Of a DNA stretch of 64,000 nucleotides, positions 29,311-41,363 are shown piece by piece; the first letter of the stretch is position 1; the number at the start of each line of letters is the position of its first letter. The notes below the pieces were generated by a model. It did no database searches. It worked only from the letters and a program-made list of their open reading frames with translations, and was not told the origin of the DNA. This stretch comes from Anaeromonas frigoriresistens (GTDB taxonomy: Bacteria > Bacillota > Clostridia > Tissierellales > SIT17), in NCBI RefSeq assembly GCF_016820655.1, contig NZ_WSFT01000028.1, forward strand, positions 1 through 64,000, read 5' to 3'. A program made the position numbers and the translations under genes.

Positions 29311-30717
29311 CTAATGAGGTAGGATTGTAAATCTCAATATAAATAATATTGCTAATACATATATTGCAGGATGTACTTCTTTTCCTTTACCCATTGTAAC
29401 TTTAGTTAATGGATAGAATATAAGTCCTGCTGCAATACCATTGGCAATACTATAACTAAAAGGCATTATTGCCATAGTTAAAAATGCAGGTAATGCTTCA
29501 GAGAAATCTTCAAAATCTATATGCTTAATAGATGTCATCATTAATACCCCTACTATAATAAGAGCTGGTGCTGTAGCTTCCGCTGGTACTATTCCCACAA
29601 TAGGTGCCAAGAATAAAGCTAAAACAAATAGTACTCCTACAGTAACTGCAGTAAGTCCTGTTCTTCCACCTTCACTTACTCCTGATGCACTTTCTACATA
29701 AGTTGTTGTAGTTGATGTTCCTAATAATGCTCCCGCTGATGTTGCAATAGAATCTGCAAATAATGCTTTATCCATATTTTTCATCTTTCCATCTTCTTTT
29801 ATAAATCCTGCTTTTGAGCCAGTTCCTACTAAAGTTCCTATTGTATCAAACATATCTACTAAACTGAAGGATATAACTACCGTTACAACACTCATTATAG
29901 CTCCAATAACTCCAACTTCACCTAGATTTAATAGTCCTTTAAAGTCTACTTGGCCTAATGTAGGCATTATACTAGGTATTGACCACGTAAAGTCTGTTGG
30001 TATTGTAGTTACTCCCATAGGTATACTTATAAGGGTAGTTAATACTATACCTATCAATATCGAACCCTTTATTTTTCTAGTCATTAATATTCCCATAACT
30101 ACTAATCCTATCAATGTTACTATTGTGGCACTCTGAGTAAAGTCTCCAAATCCAATTAAAGTAGCTGGATTATCTACTATAATATGTCCCTGTTGTAATC
30201 CAATTAATGCTATAAATAAACCTATACCTCCACCAATTGCTCTTTTCAATGAATCAGGCAATGCATTTACTATTGCTTCCCTAAGTCCCGTTATGGTCAA
30301 TATAATAAATAGTACTCCCGAAATAAATACTGCTGCTAAAGCTTCTTGCCATGTATACCCTAGACCCAATACAACTCCGTAAGTAAAGAATGCATTAAGT
30401 CCCATTCCTGGTGCTAATGCAAAGGGTAGATTTGCATAGAATCCCATGATAAAGGTACCTATCGCTGCTGCTATACAAGTAGCTACAAAAACTGATCCTA
30501 CTATAGGATCTTCAAATCCTATCCCGGCTGCTGCATCTCCTAAAGCCCCTGCTTCATTCATTCCCGCTAATTTCAAAATATTTGGATTAACAAATATAAT
30601 GTAAGCCATAGTAACAAAAGTGGTGATTCCTGCCATTATCTCCGTCTTAACATTTGTACCATTTTCACTAAGTTTAAAAAATGAGTCCATCATTGATGAT
30701 TTTTTTGTAGTATTCAT
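29311..30717 (-). CDS. NCS2-family purine permease 1
   Basis: 468 residues from ATG 30717 (MNTTKKSSMM), which follows AAGGAGG. A longer in-frame extension reads into the riboswitch terminator and is not coding. About 12-14 hydrophobic segments and the AzgA/PbuG-type motifs (ITTFVTMAYIIFVNP, ALAPGMGLNAFF, TTTYVESASGVSEGGRTGL) place it with guanine/hypoxanthine/adenine permeases rather than uracil carriers. A guanine riboswitch controls it. It shares high similarity with the paralogues at 31165 and 32983. Confidence 0.9.
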   Translation of the reverse strand: MNTTKKSSMMDSFFKLSENGTNVKTEIMAGITTFVTMAYIIFVNPNILKLAGMNEAGALGDAAAGIGFEDPIVGSVFVATCIAAAIGTFIMGFYANLPFALAPGMGLNAFFTYGVVLGLGYTWQEALAAVFISGVLFIILTITGLREAIVNALPDSLKRAIGGGIGLFIALIGLQQGHIIVDNPATLIGFGDFTQSATIVTLIGLVVMGILMTRKIKGSILIGIVLTTLISIPMGVTTIPTDFTWSIPSIMPTLGQVDFKGLLNLGEVGVIGAIMSVVTVVISFSLVDMFDTIGTLVGTGSKAGFIKEDGKMKNMDKALFADSIATSAGALLGTSTTTTYVESASGVSEGGRTGLTAVTVGVLFVLALFLAPIVGIVPAEATAPALIIVGVLMMTSIKHIDFEDFSEALPAFLTMAIMPFSYSIANGIAAGLIFYPLTKVTMGKGKEVHPAIYVLAILFILRFTILPH

Positions 30718-30750: not shown

Positions 30751-30926
30751 AAAAATCCCCCACAATAGATTTCTATAAGTGAAACCTACTTGTGGAGGAT
30801 AAAATCCTAAGTAGTGTATTACAAAAAGTAATACCTGTATCCAAAGATACCGTCTCACCCATAGTCTAAGAATTAATGGTTCTTAGGTAGAAACTTACCG
30901 GCCATATCCCGGATATTATATGAGTG
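30751..30926 (-). promoter_or_regulatory. Guanine riboswitch of NCS2 permease 1
   Basis: The purine aptamer occupies 30854-30926, read leftward. Helix P1 (ACTCA / TGGGTGAG), GATATGGCC in loop 2, TTTCTACC in J2/3 and GACTATGGG in J3/1 are all consensus. The specificity base before UAUGG is C, the guanine form, not the U of adenine switches. The expression platform ends in a terminator at 30751-30800 (ATCCTCCACAA / TTGTGGGGGAT). The expected effect is OFF with guanine. Confidence 0.92.
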
Positions 30927-31060
30927 CTTGTATTTAATTATACATTTATATTAACAAATGATTATTTATAAGTCAATAGGAAATACGAATATTTTCATTA
31001 AATTTTACGATAACGTTCTGTTTGAGTGTGATTCTCATAGCTATGAATGAATATAAAGAT

Positions 31061-31164: not shown

Positions 31165-32544
31165 TTAATGTGGTAATACCGTAAATTTAATTATAAACAA
31201 AAATGCTAATATATAAATCCCTGGATGAATCTCATCATATTTTTTTGTAGCAATTTTCATCAAAGGATAGAAAACTAATCCTGCAGCAATACCGTTAGCA
31301 ATACTATAACTAAAAGGCATTATTGCCATAGTTAAAAACGCTGGTAGTGCTTCAGTAAAATCATTAAAATCTATTTCCATTATTGGAGACATCATCAAAA
31401 CACCTACTATGATAAGAGCTGGTGCAGTAGCTTGAGGAGGCACGATTCCTATAACAGGAGCAAAGAATAATGATAATACAAATAATATAGATACCACTAC
31501 TGCAGTTAATCCTGTTCTACCACCCTCACTAACTCCCGATGCACTTTCTACATAAGTGGTTGTTGTACAGTTACCAAATAAAGCACCTATAGAGGTAGCG
31601 ATAGAATCTGCAAATAATGCTTTTTTCATATTTTTAAGTCTTCCTTGTTCATCTAAAAATCCAGCTTTAGCTCCTGTACCTATTAGAGCTCCTAAACTAT
31701 CAAATAAATCCACTAAACTAAGGGATATTACAATAGTGACTACATTGGCTATAGCCCCTAGAAGCCCTACTTCACCTAATCTCAATAATCCAACAAAATC
31801 CAACTTAAAAAATGTAGGCTCAAGGCTTGGTAGTCCAAATGTAAATGTATCAGGGATATTTGATACTCCCATGGGTATACCTATAAGGGTTGCCATAACT
31901 ATACCAATTAGCATTGATCCCTTTACCCCTCTAGCCATTAATACTCCAGTAACAATAAGTCCTAATACCGCTACAATAGTTCCTTTATTAGTGAAGTCAC
32001 CAAAACCAACCAATACATCCGGTGCTGATACTATTATTCCGGCATTTTGTAATCCTATAAAAGCTATAAATAATCCTATACCTCCACCAATTGCTCTTTT
32101 TAAAGAGTCTGGGATAGCATCAACAATTCCTTCTCTAAGTCCTGTAATAGTAAGAATAATAAATAAAATTCCAGATATAAATACTGCTGCTAAAGCTTCT
32201 TGCCATGTATATCCCATTCCGATAACTATACCGAAAGAGAAAAATGCATTAAGTCCCATTCCTGGAGCTAGTCCAAAGGGCAAATTAGCTAATACTCCCA
32301 TAAGCAAACTTCCCAGGGCTGCAGCTAAACAAGTGGATGCAAATATGGCTAACACAACTGGATCTTCAAATCCTATAGCTAAGGCGTCCTTACCTAATGC
32401 TCCTAATTCGTTCATTCCTGCCTGTTTCATTATAGTAGGATTTACAAACAGAATGTATGCCATAGTTACAAATGTGGTAATTCCCGCTATTATTTCTGTA
32501 GAAATATTTGTTTTGTTCTCTGAAAGTTTAAAAAATCTCTCCAT
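31165..32544 (-). CDS. NCS2-family purine permease 2
   Basis: 459 residues, start after AGAGGAGG. Motifs are the same as in permease 1 (ITTFVTMAYILFVNP, GLAPGMGLNAFF, CTTTTYVESASGVSEGG) and the two are close paralogues, probably duplicates. It differs in its control region, which carries two ligand-binding domains in tandem. It likely imports a purine base whose salvage uses PRPP. The 335-residue frame on the opposite strand is a shadow of it. Confidence 0.9.
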   Translation of the reverse strand: MERFFKLSENKTNISTEIIAGITTFVTMAYILFVNPTIMKQAGMNELGALGKDALAIGFEDPVVLAIFASTCLAAALGSLLMGVLANLPFGLAPGMGLNAFFSFGIVIGMGYTWQEALAAVFISGILFIILTITGLREGIVDAIPDSLKRAIGGGIGLFIAFIGLQNAGIIVSAPDVLVGFGDFTNKGTIVAVLGLIVTGVLMARGVKGSMLIGIVMATLIGIPMGVSNIPDTFTFGLPSLEPTFFKLDFVGLLRLGEVGLLGAIANVVTIVISLSLVDLFDSLGALIGTGAKAGFLDEQGRLKNMKKALFADSIATSIGALFGNCTTTTYVESASGVSEGGRTGLTAVVVSILFVLSLFFAPVIGIVPPQATAPALIIVGVLMMSPIMEIDFNDFTEALPAFLTMAIMPFSYSIANGIAAGLVFYPLMKIATKKYDEIHPGIYILAFLFIIKFTVLPH

Positions 32545-32580
32545 GATGATCCTCCTCTTATGATTAAGTGTAAATATAAT

Positions 32581-32784
32581 AAACTCAGAGGGATAGGTAT
32601 AATACTCGAAACCTATCCGCCTGAGTTTTTATCTCTTCGGTGTAATATTACAAAGGTAATATCTGTATCGCTTGGTCCAGTCAAGGAATCCTTCGGAACC
32701 CTAGATACACTTTCTTATCATAGTCAAGTAATTCATGGTCACTTGGTAGAGACTTTCTAGCCATATTCTAGAAGTTATATGATT
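32581..32784 (-). promoter_or_regulatory. Tandem guanine + ykkC-type (probably PRPP) riboswitch of NCS2 permease 2
   Basis: Read leftward, a guanine aptamer comes first (32716-32784): AATATGGCT loop, TCTCTACC and TTGACTATGAT with the guanine-specifying C. A few bases later a second aptamer (32612-32713) shows the ykkC-family core: CTAGGGTTCCG, GACTGGACCAAGCGATAC, and a 3' block AAAAACTCAGGCGGATAG. The GGACC-AAGCGATAC form resembles ykkC subtype 2 (ppGpp/PRPP) rather than guanidine-I. A terminator (32581-32628, AACTCAG-GGATAGGT / ACCTATCC-CTGAGTT) overlaps the 3' end of that aptamer. Guanine-PRPP tandems acting as a logic gate are known upstream of purine genes in Firmicutes. PRPP would prevent termination and guanine would favour it. 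Confidence 0.85.
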
Positions 32785-32982
32785 AAATCTACTATTCAAT
32801 TATTTTTTATTAATACGAATATTAATTGTTGTTTTATGATCAATGTTCACTATAACAACATTAATTATGATAACAAAATATATTTTATCAGTCAATAGTT
32901 TTTACGAACTTTTATATATAAATAATTAATATATTTAGACTTTATACGAATTAATAAGAGAAATTTTATAAAATAGTTAACT

Positions 32983-34332
32983 TTATAGTAAGAATTTTCC
33001 TATAAACAATAGAGATAATACATACATAATAGGAGATACTTCTTTATACTTTCCTGTTGTTACTTTAATAAATACATAAGATAATATACCAAATGTTATT
33101 CCTTCTGCTATGCTATAAGTTAATGGCATCATTATTATAGTTAAAAAAGCCGGGATAGCTTCTGTAAAATTTTCTAAATCTATATCTTTAATAGGAGTCA
33201 TCATAAATAACCCTACCAGTATTAATACTGGAGCTACAGCAGTAGAAGGTATCATAAGAAACAATGGAGATAAAAATAAAGCAATTATAAACATACCTGC
33301 TGTACTTACAGCTGTAAGTCCTGTCCTACCTCCCTCTGCTACTCCAGAGGCACTTTCTACCACGGTAGTAACAGTGCTTGTACCAAACATAGCTCCAAAT
33401 GTTGTTCCTATGGCATCAGCAAATAAAGCTCTTTTTGCTCCTGGTAATTGCCCTTTCTCATCAAGCATTTCTGCCTTTGCTCCTACTCCTACTAATGTTC
33501 CCACAGTGTCAAATAAATCTACAAACAAGAATGTAAATAGTACTATAAACATATCCCAAGTTAATATATTATGAAATTGAAATTTAAATAAAATAGGTTC
33601 TAAGGAAGGAGGTCTGCTAATTATGTTCAATCCTTCTGGTAAAATAGTCTCTCCTAGAGGTATTCCTATAAGTGTAGTTAAGATCATGCCTATCAATAAA
33701 GCACCCTTAACATTCTTTACTAATAATGCTCCTGTAATACCAACTCCTATCAAGGTTAATAAAGGTCCTGGTTGGGCTATATTGCCCAATTTAACTACTA
33801 CTCCAGATAATACCCCTTCATCTACTGCTACCATACCAGTATTTACTATTCCAGAGTTCACCAGTCCAATAAACGCTATAAAAAGTCCTATCCCTACGGA
33901 TATTGCCTTTTTTATAGTCATAGGGATACAATTTATTATAGCTTCCCTAATATTTAAAGCAGTCAGAAGAATAAATATTAACCCCTCCAAAAATACTGCC
34001 GTTAATGCAAACTCCCAAGGATAACCCATTCCCAATACTACAGTATATGCAAAAAATGCATTAAGTCCCATACCTGGAGCTAGAGCAAAGGGCATATTGG
34101 CATATAGACCCATAACTAATGTTCCGATTATAGCTGATAGTGCTGTAGCAGTGAATAAAGCATTTATATCCATCCCTGTCTCTGCTAAAGTTATAGGGTT
34201 TACAATAAGTATATAGGCCATAGTCATGAATGTAGTGATCCCAGCTACAATCTCCCTTTTAACAGTAGTATTTCTTTCTTCTATTTTAAAATAATCATTA
34301 CTTTTTTTTATTCTATTAGTTGTAATTTCCAT
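32983..34332 (-). CDS. NCS2-family purine permease 3
   Basis: 449 residues, start after AAAGGAG. It is a more distant paralogue of the two permeases downstream, with the same landmarks (ITTFMTMAYILIVNP, ALAPGMGLNAFF, TTVVESASGVAEGGRTGL). A guanine riboswitch precedes it. The interval 32785-32982 to its left is non-coding and AT-rich, containing the promoter of the tandem riboswitch and nothing else I can identify. Confidence 0.9.
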   Translation of the reverse strand: MEITTNRIKKSNDYFKIEERNTTVKREIVAGITTFMTMAYILIVNPITLAETGMDINALFTATALSAIIGTLVMGLYANMPFALAPGMGLNAFFAYTVVLGMGYPWEFALTAVFLEGLIFILLTALNIREAIINCIPMTIKKAISVGIGLFIAFIGLVNSGIVNTGMVAVDEGVLSGVVVKLGNIAQPGPLLTLIGVGITGALLVKNVKGALLIGMILTTLIGIPLGETILPEGLNIISRPPSLEPILFKFQFHNILTWDMFIVLFTFLFVDLFDTVGTLVGVGAKAEMLDEKGQLPGAKRALFADAIGTTFGAMFGTSTVTTVVESASGVAEGGRTGLTAVSTAGMFIIALFLSPLFLMIPSTAVAPVLILVGLFMMTPIKDIDLENFTEAIPAFLTIIMMPLTYSIAEGITFGILSYVFIKVTTGKYKEVSPIMYVLSLLFIGKFLL

Positions 34333-34390: not shown

Positions 34391-34550
34391 AAAAATCCCT
34401 CAATAGATTTCACCTATAAGCGAAACCTACTGAGGGATTTATATCCTTAAGTAGAGTATTACATTAGTAATACAAGTCTCACTCATAGTCTAAGAATTCA
34501 CGGTTCTTAGGTAGAAACTCTCCGGCCATATTCCGAATAATATATGAGTT
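34391..34550 (-). promoter_or_regulatory. Guanine riboswitch of NCS2 permease 3
   Basis: Aptamer at 34480-34550, read leftward: P1 ACTCATA / TATGAGT, GAATATGGCC loop, TTTCTACC junction, and TTAGACTATGAGT with the guanine-specifying C. The terminator is at 34391-34440 (AAATCCCTCA / TGAGGGATTT). The P3 stem sequence CCTAAGAAC / TTCTTAG is almost identical to that of riboswitch 1, indicating duplication with the permease genes. Confidence 0.92.
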
Positions 34551-34755
34551 CTTTTATTTAATTATATTAAATATTAACAGAGGTTTGTTAATGTGTCAAT
34601 GAAATATTTAAATATTAAGTTGTTTTAATATAGTATTTTGCATACTCTTTATAACACTTCCACATCTTTTATAGTAATAACAAAAATAAGCAAGATTAGT
34701 TTTCATTAAATATTCTTGTATTATATAATAGTATGAAAGGAGTTGAGCCATACTG

Positions 34756-38082: not shown

Positions 38083-39618
38083 TCACTCCCATTCAATAGT
38101 TGATGGAGGTTTACTCGTAATATCATATACGATCCTATTAACCCCATCTACATTATTAACAATCCTATTAGAAGCTTTTTCTAATACTTCATAAGGAATT
38201 CTAGCCCAATCACTGGTCATACCATCACTACTATTTACCGCCCTTAAAGCTATAGTATGGGCATAGGTTCTTCCATCTCCCATTACCCCAACACTTTTTA
38301 TATTAGGTAGCACTGCGAAATACTGCCATATATCTTTGTCTAATCCAGCCCGTTTTATTTCTTCTCTAAAAATATAGTCTGCTTCTCTAACTATATGAAG
38401 CTTCTCTTCTGTTATCTCTCCTAAAACTCTTATAGCTAATCCTGGTCCCGGGAAAGGTTGTCTCATCAATACATCCTCAGGAATATTTAAGCTTCTGCCT
38501 AATACCCTTACCTCATCTTTAAACAATTCCCTTAAAGGTTCTATGATCTCAAAGTCCACATCCTCAGGCAGGCCTCCTACATTATGATGACTTTTGATAA
38601 CCGAAGCTTTATCAGTACCACTTTCTATAACATCAGGATATATAGTCCCTTGGACAAGATAATCTATATCTTTAAGCTTATTTTTTTCTTCCTCAAATAC
38701 TCGGATAAATTCTTCTCCAATAATCTTTCTTTTCATTTCTGGATCAGTTATCCCTTCAAGCTTTGATAAAAACCTTTCTTGGGCATTTACCCTTATAAGA
38801 TTCATATCAAATCTTTCTGTAAATATCTTTTCAACTTGATCTCCTTCATCCTTTCTTAGAAGACCATGATCTACAAATATACAGGTCAGATTTTGTCCTA
38901 TAGCTCTATGGACCAATACTGCCGCCACAGAAGAATCTACTCCTCCAGAAAGGGCACAAATGGCTCTTTTATCTCCAATTTTTTCTTTGATTCTTTCTAT
39001 CTCTTCCTTTGCAAAATCCCCCATATTCCAATCTTGAATTAATCCACAGATATTATATAGGAAATTCCTTATCATCTCAGTTCCCTTTTCTGTATGATTT
39101 ACTTCTGGATGAAATTGAAGAGCATAAATTTTCCTATTCTCATCCTTCATTCCTGCTACAGGACAGGAGGGAGTATTAGCTATAACACTAAACCCTTCAG
39201 GAAGCTGACTGATAAAATCTGTATGACTCATCCAACAATTTAAATTATCTCCTAAATCTTTAAATATCCCACTACTATCTACTATATTAAGTTCTGTCTT
39301 TCCATACTCTCTTTCTTCTGCTCTCATTACCTTTCCATTAAAATGCTGAGCTATTAATTGTCCTCCATAACATATTCCAAGAATAGGTATGTCTAGTTTA
39401 AATACTCCTTCGTCACATTTTGGAGATTCTTCTCCGTATACACTAGAGGGCCCTCCAGAAAATATAATACCATCAGGACTTTTTGACTTTATCCTATCAA
39501 TAGATACATCAAAGGGTAAAATCTCACAATATATCCCTGCTTCTCTAACTCTTCTTGCTATCAACTGACTATATTGACCACCAAAGTCCATTATTAAAAT
39601 ATAGTTACTTTTCATCAT
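38083..39618 (-). CDS. guaA: GMP synthase (glutamine-hydrolysing)
   Basis: 511 residues. It aminates XMP to GMP with glutamine and ATP. The N-terminal class I amidotransferase has nucleophile Cys in GICYGGQ (about 80-86) and the catalytic FHPEVNHTE. The ATP pyrophosphatase loop SGGVDSS follows at about 225, then the GMPS dimerisation domain ending in IEWE. AGGAGGGG lies upstream; the first or second of two adjacent ATGs could be used. It lies 15 bases downstream of guaB, forming a guaB-guaA operon. Confidence 0.96.
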
Positions 39619-39633
39619 ATCCCCTCCTAATTT

Positions 39634-41256
<1,623 letters not shown>

Positions 41257-41363
41257 TCTCAAAATATTAAGTTTCATATATGTTAACAAAAGATTTGTAC
41301 TATGTCAATGGAAAATCAAGAGAAAATATAGTAACATATCTATTTTGTCATTAATTAATTATT

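Follow-up and report, generated by a model that had tools for sequence, protein, structure and literature searches.

A predicted guanine-PRPP tandem riboswitch ahead of an AzgA-type purine permease, with collapsed PRPP-aptamer remnants in the leaders of its neighbours

Permeases and riboswitches at the locus

The window, that is, the whole stretch of 64,000 nucleotides analysed here, holds three permease genes side by side (A, B and C). A guanine aptamer lies ahead of each, and a PRPP aptamer at B only. Two covariance models are used throughout: R1, built from 40 second aptamers of tandems with the window included, and R2 for the purine aptamers, in which the window is one of 27 training rows. 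The features are as follows:

29311-30717, minus strand: permease A, a paralogue 72% identical to B (PF00860 for 29311-30690)
30854-30927, minus strand: guanine aptamer of permease A (Rfam span 30842-30943; RF00167 83.5 bits, R2 77.1 bits)
31165-32544, minus strand: permease B, an AzgA-type NCS2 purine permease of 459 aa by PF00860 and AZG homology
32577-32632, minus strand: intrinsic terminator over P3 and the 3' tail of the PRPP aptamer, from folding
32608-32714, minus strand: PRPP-class ykkC aptamer, second input, by RF00442, residues 49 and 96, and R1
32713-32786, minus strand: guanine aptamer, first input (Rfam span 32701-32802; RF00167, Purine, 81.4 bits)
32983-34332, minus strand: permease C, 52% identical to B (PF00860 E 4.9e-38)
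34478-34551, minus strand: guanine aptamer of permease C (Rfam span 34466-34567; RF00167 88.1 bits)
41184-41257, minus strand: guanine-only riboswitch of an IMP dehydrogenase-GMP synthase pair (Rfam span 41172-41273; RF00167 84.3 bits)

The start of permease A was taken at the ATG after GGAGG, and the ORFs 39634-41133 and 38083-39618, whose names we recognised from their sequences, are presumably the IMP dehydrogenase-GMP synthase pair. Permease B matches PF00860 with E 4.3e-42 (144.6 bits against a cut-off of 27). Compared with the adenine/guanine permeases AZG1 (8irl) and AZG2 (9j12) in the PDB, which share this domain and are homologous to it, its best E is 1.2e-66, to AZG1; a search of NCBIfam with permease B gave no match. 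A purine substrate is predicted for permease B from this homology.

According to the Rfam models and folding, the tandem element occupies about 32577-32802 of the minus strand. A preliminary description, which named no strand, had placed it at 32581-32784, where it does lie, but that span clips the 5' end of the guanine aptamer. This aptamer scores 81.4 bits with RF00167 over 32701-32802, against a gathering score of 37, and 80.5 bits with R2, for which it is a training row. Its junction bases CTACC and GACTA are intact, including C74, which we take to be the guanine-specifying base of purine aptamers. The ykkC-scaffold aptamer (RF00442, 61.7 bits) adjoins it directly, and one terminator, overlapping the second aptamer, is common to both, so that the arrangement of the preliminary description is borne out in both respects. 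The terminator hairpin within 32570-32635 folds with -23.9 kcal/mol (z -5.07; 0/200 shuffles as stable), its 5' arm is supplied by the PRPP aptamer (P3 and 3' tail), and the hairpin is followed by TTTATTATATTT. Downstream follow GAGGAGG and the ATG of permease B, with the PRPP aptamer 63 nt ahead of the gene. Neither aptamer folded alone exceeded its shuffles in stability (z 0.13 and -0.76), and support for the aptamers comes from the covariance models, that for the terminator from folding.

Class of the second aptamer

The second aptamer is matched at 32616-32715 by RF00442, the guanidine-I model of the ykkC scaffold, with 61.7 bits and E 7.2e-11 on 301 bases. The ykkC-type aptamer of the preliminary description thus has a covariance-model match, 1.3 bits below the curated gathering score of 63. 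In a search of the window's genome up to E 10, it was the single match of RF00442. R1 gives it 102.9 bits, with the window among its 40 training rows. In the alignment of these 40 homologues, 14 of 20 stem pairs changed on both sides (0/500 shuffles) and 96.5% of the cells in stem columns are paired; this alignment also served to predict the structure.

A pyrimidine at position 49 has been described as a mark against guanidine, and G96 as a mark for PRPP versus ppGpp (Knappenberger 2018, PMC6031431). The second aptamer of the window has C at position 49, and G96 is present. In the numbering of that study, C77, C78, G96, A101, A103, G104 and G105 were counted on the window at the published spacing. 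The conserved P0-forming tails are likewise present, GAAAG on the 5' side and GGATAGGTTTC on the 3' side, and GAAAG accommodates the PRPP contacts A5 and G6. The window therefore resembles the T. mathranii PRPP aptamer in contact residues, spacing, P0 end helix and tandem setting, as far as these are given in PMC6031431.

Guanidine-I identity was rejected, since position 49 is C rather than A and the 61.7 bits lie under the gathering score of 63, and so was the ppGpp identity of ykkC 2a, which has no G96, whereas the window does. The ADP or nucleoside-diphosphate riboswitches (ykkC 2c) have binding-pocket changes of their own and NUDIX or HAD targets; the target here is a permease. We consider ppGpp, guanidine or a nucleoside diphosphate, in place of PRPP, a very improbable ligand of the second aptamer. 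Guanidine-I is its best Rfam model, and G96A alone converts a PRPP aptamer into one that prefers ppGpp (PMC6031431), but C49, G96 and the retention of both P0 tails and of the PRPP-contacting residues given above all argue against such a ligand, as does the neighbouring guanine aptamer, which is typical of the PRPP class. Among 122 aligned ykkC matches of the order sample described below, A49 occurred in 15, none of which stands in a tandem (0/15).

By the residues checked, the second aptamer is of the PRPP class, and together with PF00860 (E 4.3e-42) this agrees with the preliminary description of a guanine-PRPP tandem on an NCS2 permease. The kind of tandem is already known, and its identification from sequence is good.

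Gate logic and the antiterminator

The published guanine-PRPP gate is an IMPLY gate, turned OFF by one combination alone, high guanine together with low PRPP (Sherlock 2018, PMC5912903; also PMC6031431), as was experimentally shown for the codA tandem of B. megaterium (PMC5912903). In that tandem, as in the window, a guanine aptamer is followed directly by a ykkC 2b aptamer with a terminator overlapping the second, and the diagnostic residues are the same. The genes that PMC5912903 gives for the tandem are de novo steps up to IMP, with codA also common for 2b RNAs, whereas the target in the window is a purine permease; the P0/P1 overlap of this copy is also weak. The preliminary description had uptake depend on 'PRPP high and guanine low', which is NOT-A-AND-B and departs from the published IMPLY logic.

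By homology, we posit the following scheme for permease B. With neither ligand, upstream RNA would occupy the 5' arm of the terminator and the permease would be transcribed. Guanine would lock P1 of the first aptamer and free the 5' arm, whereupon the terminator would form (OFF). PRPP, once bound, would keep P3 and the end helix P0 in place; the 5' arm is part of these, so the gene would stay ON despite guanine. Uptake would then be shut in just one situation, namely abundant guanine with scarce PRPP, the co-substrate that turns imported bases into nucleotides. We assign a probability of roughly 0.78 to a transcription-attenuating two-input guanine/PRPP riboswitch acting on purine uptake; the ligands, direction and truth table are those expected from homologous gates. 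Counting against it are the weak duplex of P1 strand and tail in this copy, the occurrence of the P0 extension outside detected tandems, and the loss of the PRPP aptamer from two sister leaders, all described below.

The 3' strand of the guanine P1 is complementary to the terminator 5' arm in leaders A and C (-17.5 and -19.2 kcal/mol), where it pairs with the tail at a probability of 0.99 and 1.00. In these folding models, the pairing is an ordinary antiterminator. Among five intact related tandems, two of them identical in sequence, the duplex of P1 strand and tail has -15.1 to -16.6 kcal/mol and consists of P0 plus an extension, closed by the PRPP aptamer. Across 111 distinct tandems, too, P0 extends into the guanine P1 strand, with 77-91% paired at the first four added positions; for 76 aptamers beside which no guanine aptamer was detected, the figure is 58-66%. 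None of 1000 permutations reached the value of either set, and tandems are thus not alone in having the extension. P0 and the guanine P1 have been proposed to be mutually exclusive in one RNA, that of T. mathranii (Knappenberger 2018, PMC6031431), and the modelled extension fits this proposal. An antiterminator that PRPP stabilises and guanine removes would explain IMPLY behaviour.

In the window's own gate the corresponding duplex reaches just -4.9 kcal/mol and is weak and bulged. Its P1 strand pairs with the tail at a probability of 0.01, and with its own P1 partner at 0.04, while the probability with the tail is 0.19-0.98 in seven related tandems (two identical in sequence). In the fold, two A residues intervene between P1 strand and P0, and the contiguous extension is missing, unlike the mutually exclusive P0 and P1 of T. 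mathranii (PMC6031431); alignments show one extra base between the P1 strand and GAAAG. With antiterminator pairing nearly lost, the ligand-free state may be OFF, and the truth table may have drifted. We regard it as possible, if somewhat unlikely, that ligand-free RNA of B terminates by default, that PRPP is required, and that guanine acts weakly or only by crowding. A duplex far below those of the related tandems and of leaders A and C would suit such a gate, as would the extra base before GAAAG. This reading rests, however, on secondary-structure energies of ligand-free RNA that take no account of kinetics; a bulged ATAA/TTAT extension is possible in B, and ligand-free tandems elsewhere also spread widely, down to 0.19 in L282. 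If true, it would nearly amount to the logic of the preliminary description ('PRPP high and guanine low'), and with near-absent antiterminator pairing a PRPP-requiring gate is conceivable for this copy.

Collapsed PRPP aptamers in the leaders of A and C

The leaders of permeases A and C share with that of B the guanine aptamer, the permease family and the antiterminator-terminator platform, but their PRPP core is lost. What is left was located with R1 run without filters and with shuffle tests:

30781-30856, minus strand: collapsed PRPP-aptamer remnant in leader A
34422-34484, minus strand: collapsed PRPP-aptamer remnant in leader C

The remnant of A keeps short P1, P2 and P3 stems and the GTAGGTTTCACTTATAG tail, with the core gone, and that of C keeps P2, a P3-like part and the tail. 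R1 gave 12.4 bits for A (E 2.1e-4 for 181 bases) and 6.7 bits for C (E 0.009 for 171 bases), these E-values being rough. Local alignment of leaders A and C and of the leader of congener G001 with each of five tandem leaders, two of which are the same sequence, gave scores that 0/300 shuffles reached, compared with 2 to 152 of 300 for the control leader G002 and 9 to 244 for that of guaBA. Set against 40 intact aptamers without terminators, A was equalled by 1/200 shuffles and C and G001 by 0/200, the controls by 125/200 (guaBA), 182/200 (G002), 99/200 (purL of G001) and 36/200 (the genome's own purL). That guanine-only purL leader (L274:1344-1423) was itself considered as a remnant on account of its R1 score (8.2 bits, E 0.0034); it is at most a possible one and was not counted, because 36/200 shuffles did as well. 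What is new at this locus are the collapsed PRPP-aptamer remnants in guanine-only leaders of neighbouring permeases.

In a quick tree of 76 permeases, B is surrounded by permeases under tandem control. A makes up a four-member set with the three congeners, deeper inside the same assemblage (supports 95-98), and C, on a long branch, joins tandem-controlled permeases as well (support 91). The simplest reading is that A and C lost the PRPP cap; a less simple but conceivable alternative is that B acquired it on top of an older guanine leader. The decay might be thought to have reached the PRPP aptamer of B too, leaving it no longer working. The remnants in the sister leaders and the weak coupling in B speak for this, but the stems and contact residues of B are intact and RF00442 gives it 61.7 bits, whereas the remnants have no core, and we judge a decayed aptamer in B quite improbable. 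With one intact gate and two collapsed PRPP caps, the three sister leaders of one genome make up a natural set for the gate mechanism.

Related genomes distribute their switches differently. The window's genome has a guanine-only switch on purL. In two of three congeners, variant-purine/PRPP tandems precede purC and purL, while the permease has a guanine-only switch; in the third, purL as well as the permease has a guanine-only switch.

Target genes of guanine-PRPP tandems

The genes of such tandems are stated to 'only include' de novo steps to IMP, with codA named as also common for 2b RNAs (PMC5912903), a count of 192 guanine-PRPP tandems has been given (PMC9481103), and the de novo role is repeated in PMC7266159. 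The words permease, xpt and xanthine are absent from the main text of PMC5912903. Among the main texts of open-licence papers, we found no paper linking PRPP or guanine-PRPP riboswitches to a permease or xanthine permease; guanine-I switches on xpt of Paenibacillus have been predicted as OFF switches (PMC9295807). Target genes were compared in three samples, which overlap in that some records recur (e.g., L096 and L288).

The first sample was a pattern scan of contigs of one genome per species (84,980 species), which looked for CTAGGGTTCCG after a canonical guanine aptamer. It gave at least 120 loci; their gene fractions favour canonical guanine aptamers and should not be read as estimates of prevalence. 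Among the matches listed, 115 of 120 have a full-length R1 match, a weak one in L044 (37.8 bits); of those without, L113, labelled Planctomycetota, is most likely a chance match, and L038, L087, L110 and L123 lie at the end of a stretch. With representatives named by NCBIfam, the first genes among the 120 listed loci were xpt (42), AzgA-type permease (34), purE (10), pbuX (7), purL (5) and purD (4), with 102 gene-assigned in all. The listed permease cases, among them Sporomusa, Pelosinus, Dethiobacter, Alkaliphilus, Thermohalobacter and three MAGs labelled Ktedonobacterales or Ktedonobacteria, have a pyrimidine at position 49 throughout (34/34; 28 T, 6 C).

The second, order sample comprised 150 genomes, with an RF00442 match at E <=1e-5 in 87. 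Of 122 matches aligned with R1, 100 are PRPP-type; the 15 with A49, four before ABC-transporter genes, which have a different 3' tail and a doubtful column 96, and three before acetyltransferase-like genes were left out. Position 49 is C in 96 of the 100, T in 2 and G in 2. Tandem status was assigned by R2, as a text pattern misses variant purine aptamers; L237-L239 contained no purine aptamer by Rfam at its cut-off. The ORF assigned was purL in 59 cases (48 in tandem), permease in 16 with the window included (16), purC in 15 (12), purF, at 503-579 nt, in 7 (2), purE in 2 (1) and another gene in 1 (0), one place being counted twice because L146 and L175 overlap.

The third, phylum sample covered 398 genomes, 226 of them with an R1 match at E <=1e-8. 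Of at least 150 matches, 110 were classified, namely 29 loci, 80 hand-picked from 120 further rows, and the window; every one of them has G96 and, at position 49, a pyrimidine. De novo purine genes account for 74 of these 110 (23 in tandem), permeases for 26 (19), BMP-like ABC binding proteins for 4 (4), nucleoside-phosphorylase-like genes for 2 (2), and pbuX (1), adenine deaminase (1), an unnamed gene (1) and formate-tetrahydrofolate ligase (0) for 1 each. The BMP-like and phosphorylase-like names, taken from representatives, lie below curated cut-offs. Within the 110 classified of at least 150 matches, tandems were commoner on uptake and salvage genes (27/34) than on de novo genes (23/74; Fisher p 3e-6), a comparison limited by the relatedness of the genomes, which are not independent, and by the training of R1 on tandems; in the order sample, however, 63 of 83 de novo matches are also in tandem.

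The view of the preliminary description that these tandems act mainly on de novo genes agrees with the order sample (83/100) and the phylum sample (74/110 classified of at least 150) but not with the listed scan loci (19/102). A permease target is not exceptional, being found in 34/102 listed scan loci, 16/100 order matches and 26/110 classified phylum matches of at least 150. The idea of a unique permease target was dropped. Both the target gene in the window and the recurrence of the element on permeases are established, and in the sampled genomes, as far as sequence identifies them, guanine-PRPP tandems are often on uptake and salvage genes, besides de novo purine genes.

In the published rationale, PRPP overrides guanine so that AMP but not GMP is made in the stringent response, a rationale based on the claim that de novo steps to IMP are all that tandems control. 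The presence of tandems on AzgA-type permease, xpt-pbuX, nucleoside-phosphorylase-like and adenine deaminase genes is at odds with this rationale and points to a broader rule, namely to acquire purine bases while PRPP is available to trap them. We see the worth of the finding in the repeated use of uptake and salvage genes as targets and in the decay of the sister leaders. A more general picture is tentative, and we think it unlikely to hold in full: the guanine-PRPP gate would be a guanine OFF switch with a PRPP-capped antiterminator that decays to a plain guanine switch when the cap collapses, as in A and C, while B would have lost its antiterminator and become PRPP-requiring, and uptake and salvage would be a main business of these gates.

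Several minor observations were made among these matches. In the scan of at least 120 tandems, the 42 with xpt as first gene (e.g., L015, L018, L024, L035) have pbuX next in those checked and come mainly from Paenibacillus, Brevibacillus and Alicyclobacillus; 13 of the 42 listed have GGACAGATTC where others have GGNNAGGTTTC. Guanine-ykkC tandems with long insertions (R1 51-61 bits) occur at L008, L042, L050, L078 and L111 in MAGs labelled Ktedonobacterales, Ktedonobacteria or Chloroflexi, which do not belong to the phylum that PMC5912903 names for PRPP riboswitches. In the phylum sample, L285, L335, L344, L349, L314, L319 and L345 are tandems before BMP-like, nucleoside-phosphorylase-like and adenine deaminase genes. 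G at position 49 was seen in PRPP-type aptamers before purL at L174:343-447, L194:341-445 and L108:742-846, of which L108 and L174 seem to be one record. Finally, 64 of 78 purine aptamers adjoining PRPP aptamers in the order sample (L131-L242) have a non-canonical junction around positions 53, 72 and 73 (40/48 for purL, 12/12 for purC and 9/15 for permeases). The ligand of such aptamers may be other than plain guanine; L241:295-368 and 1227-1300 are examples of the purine aptamers surveyed.
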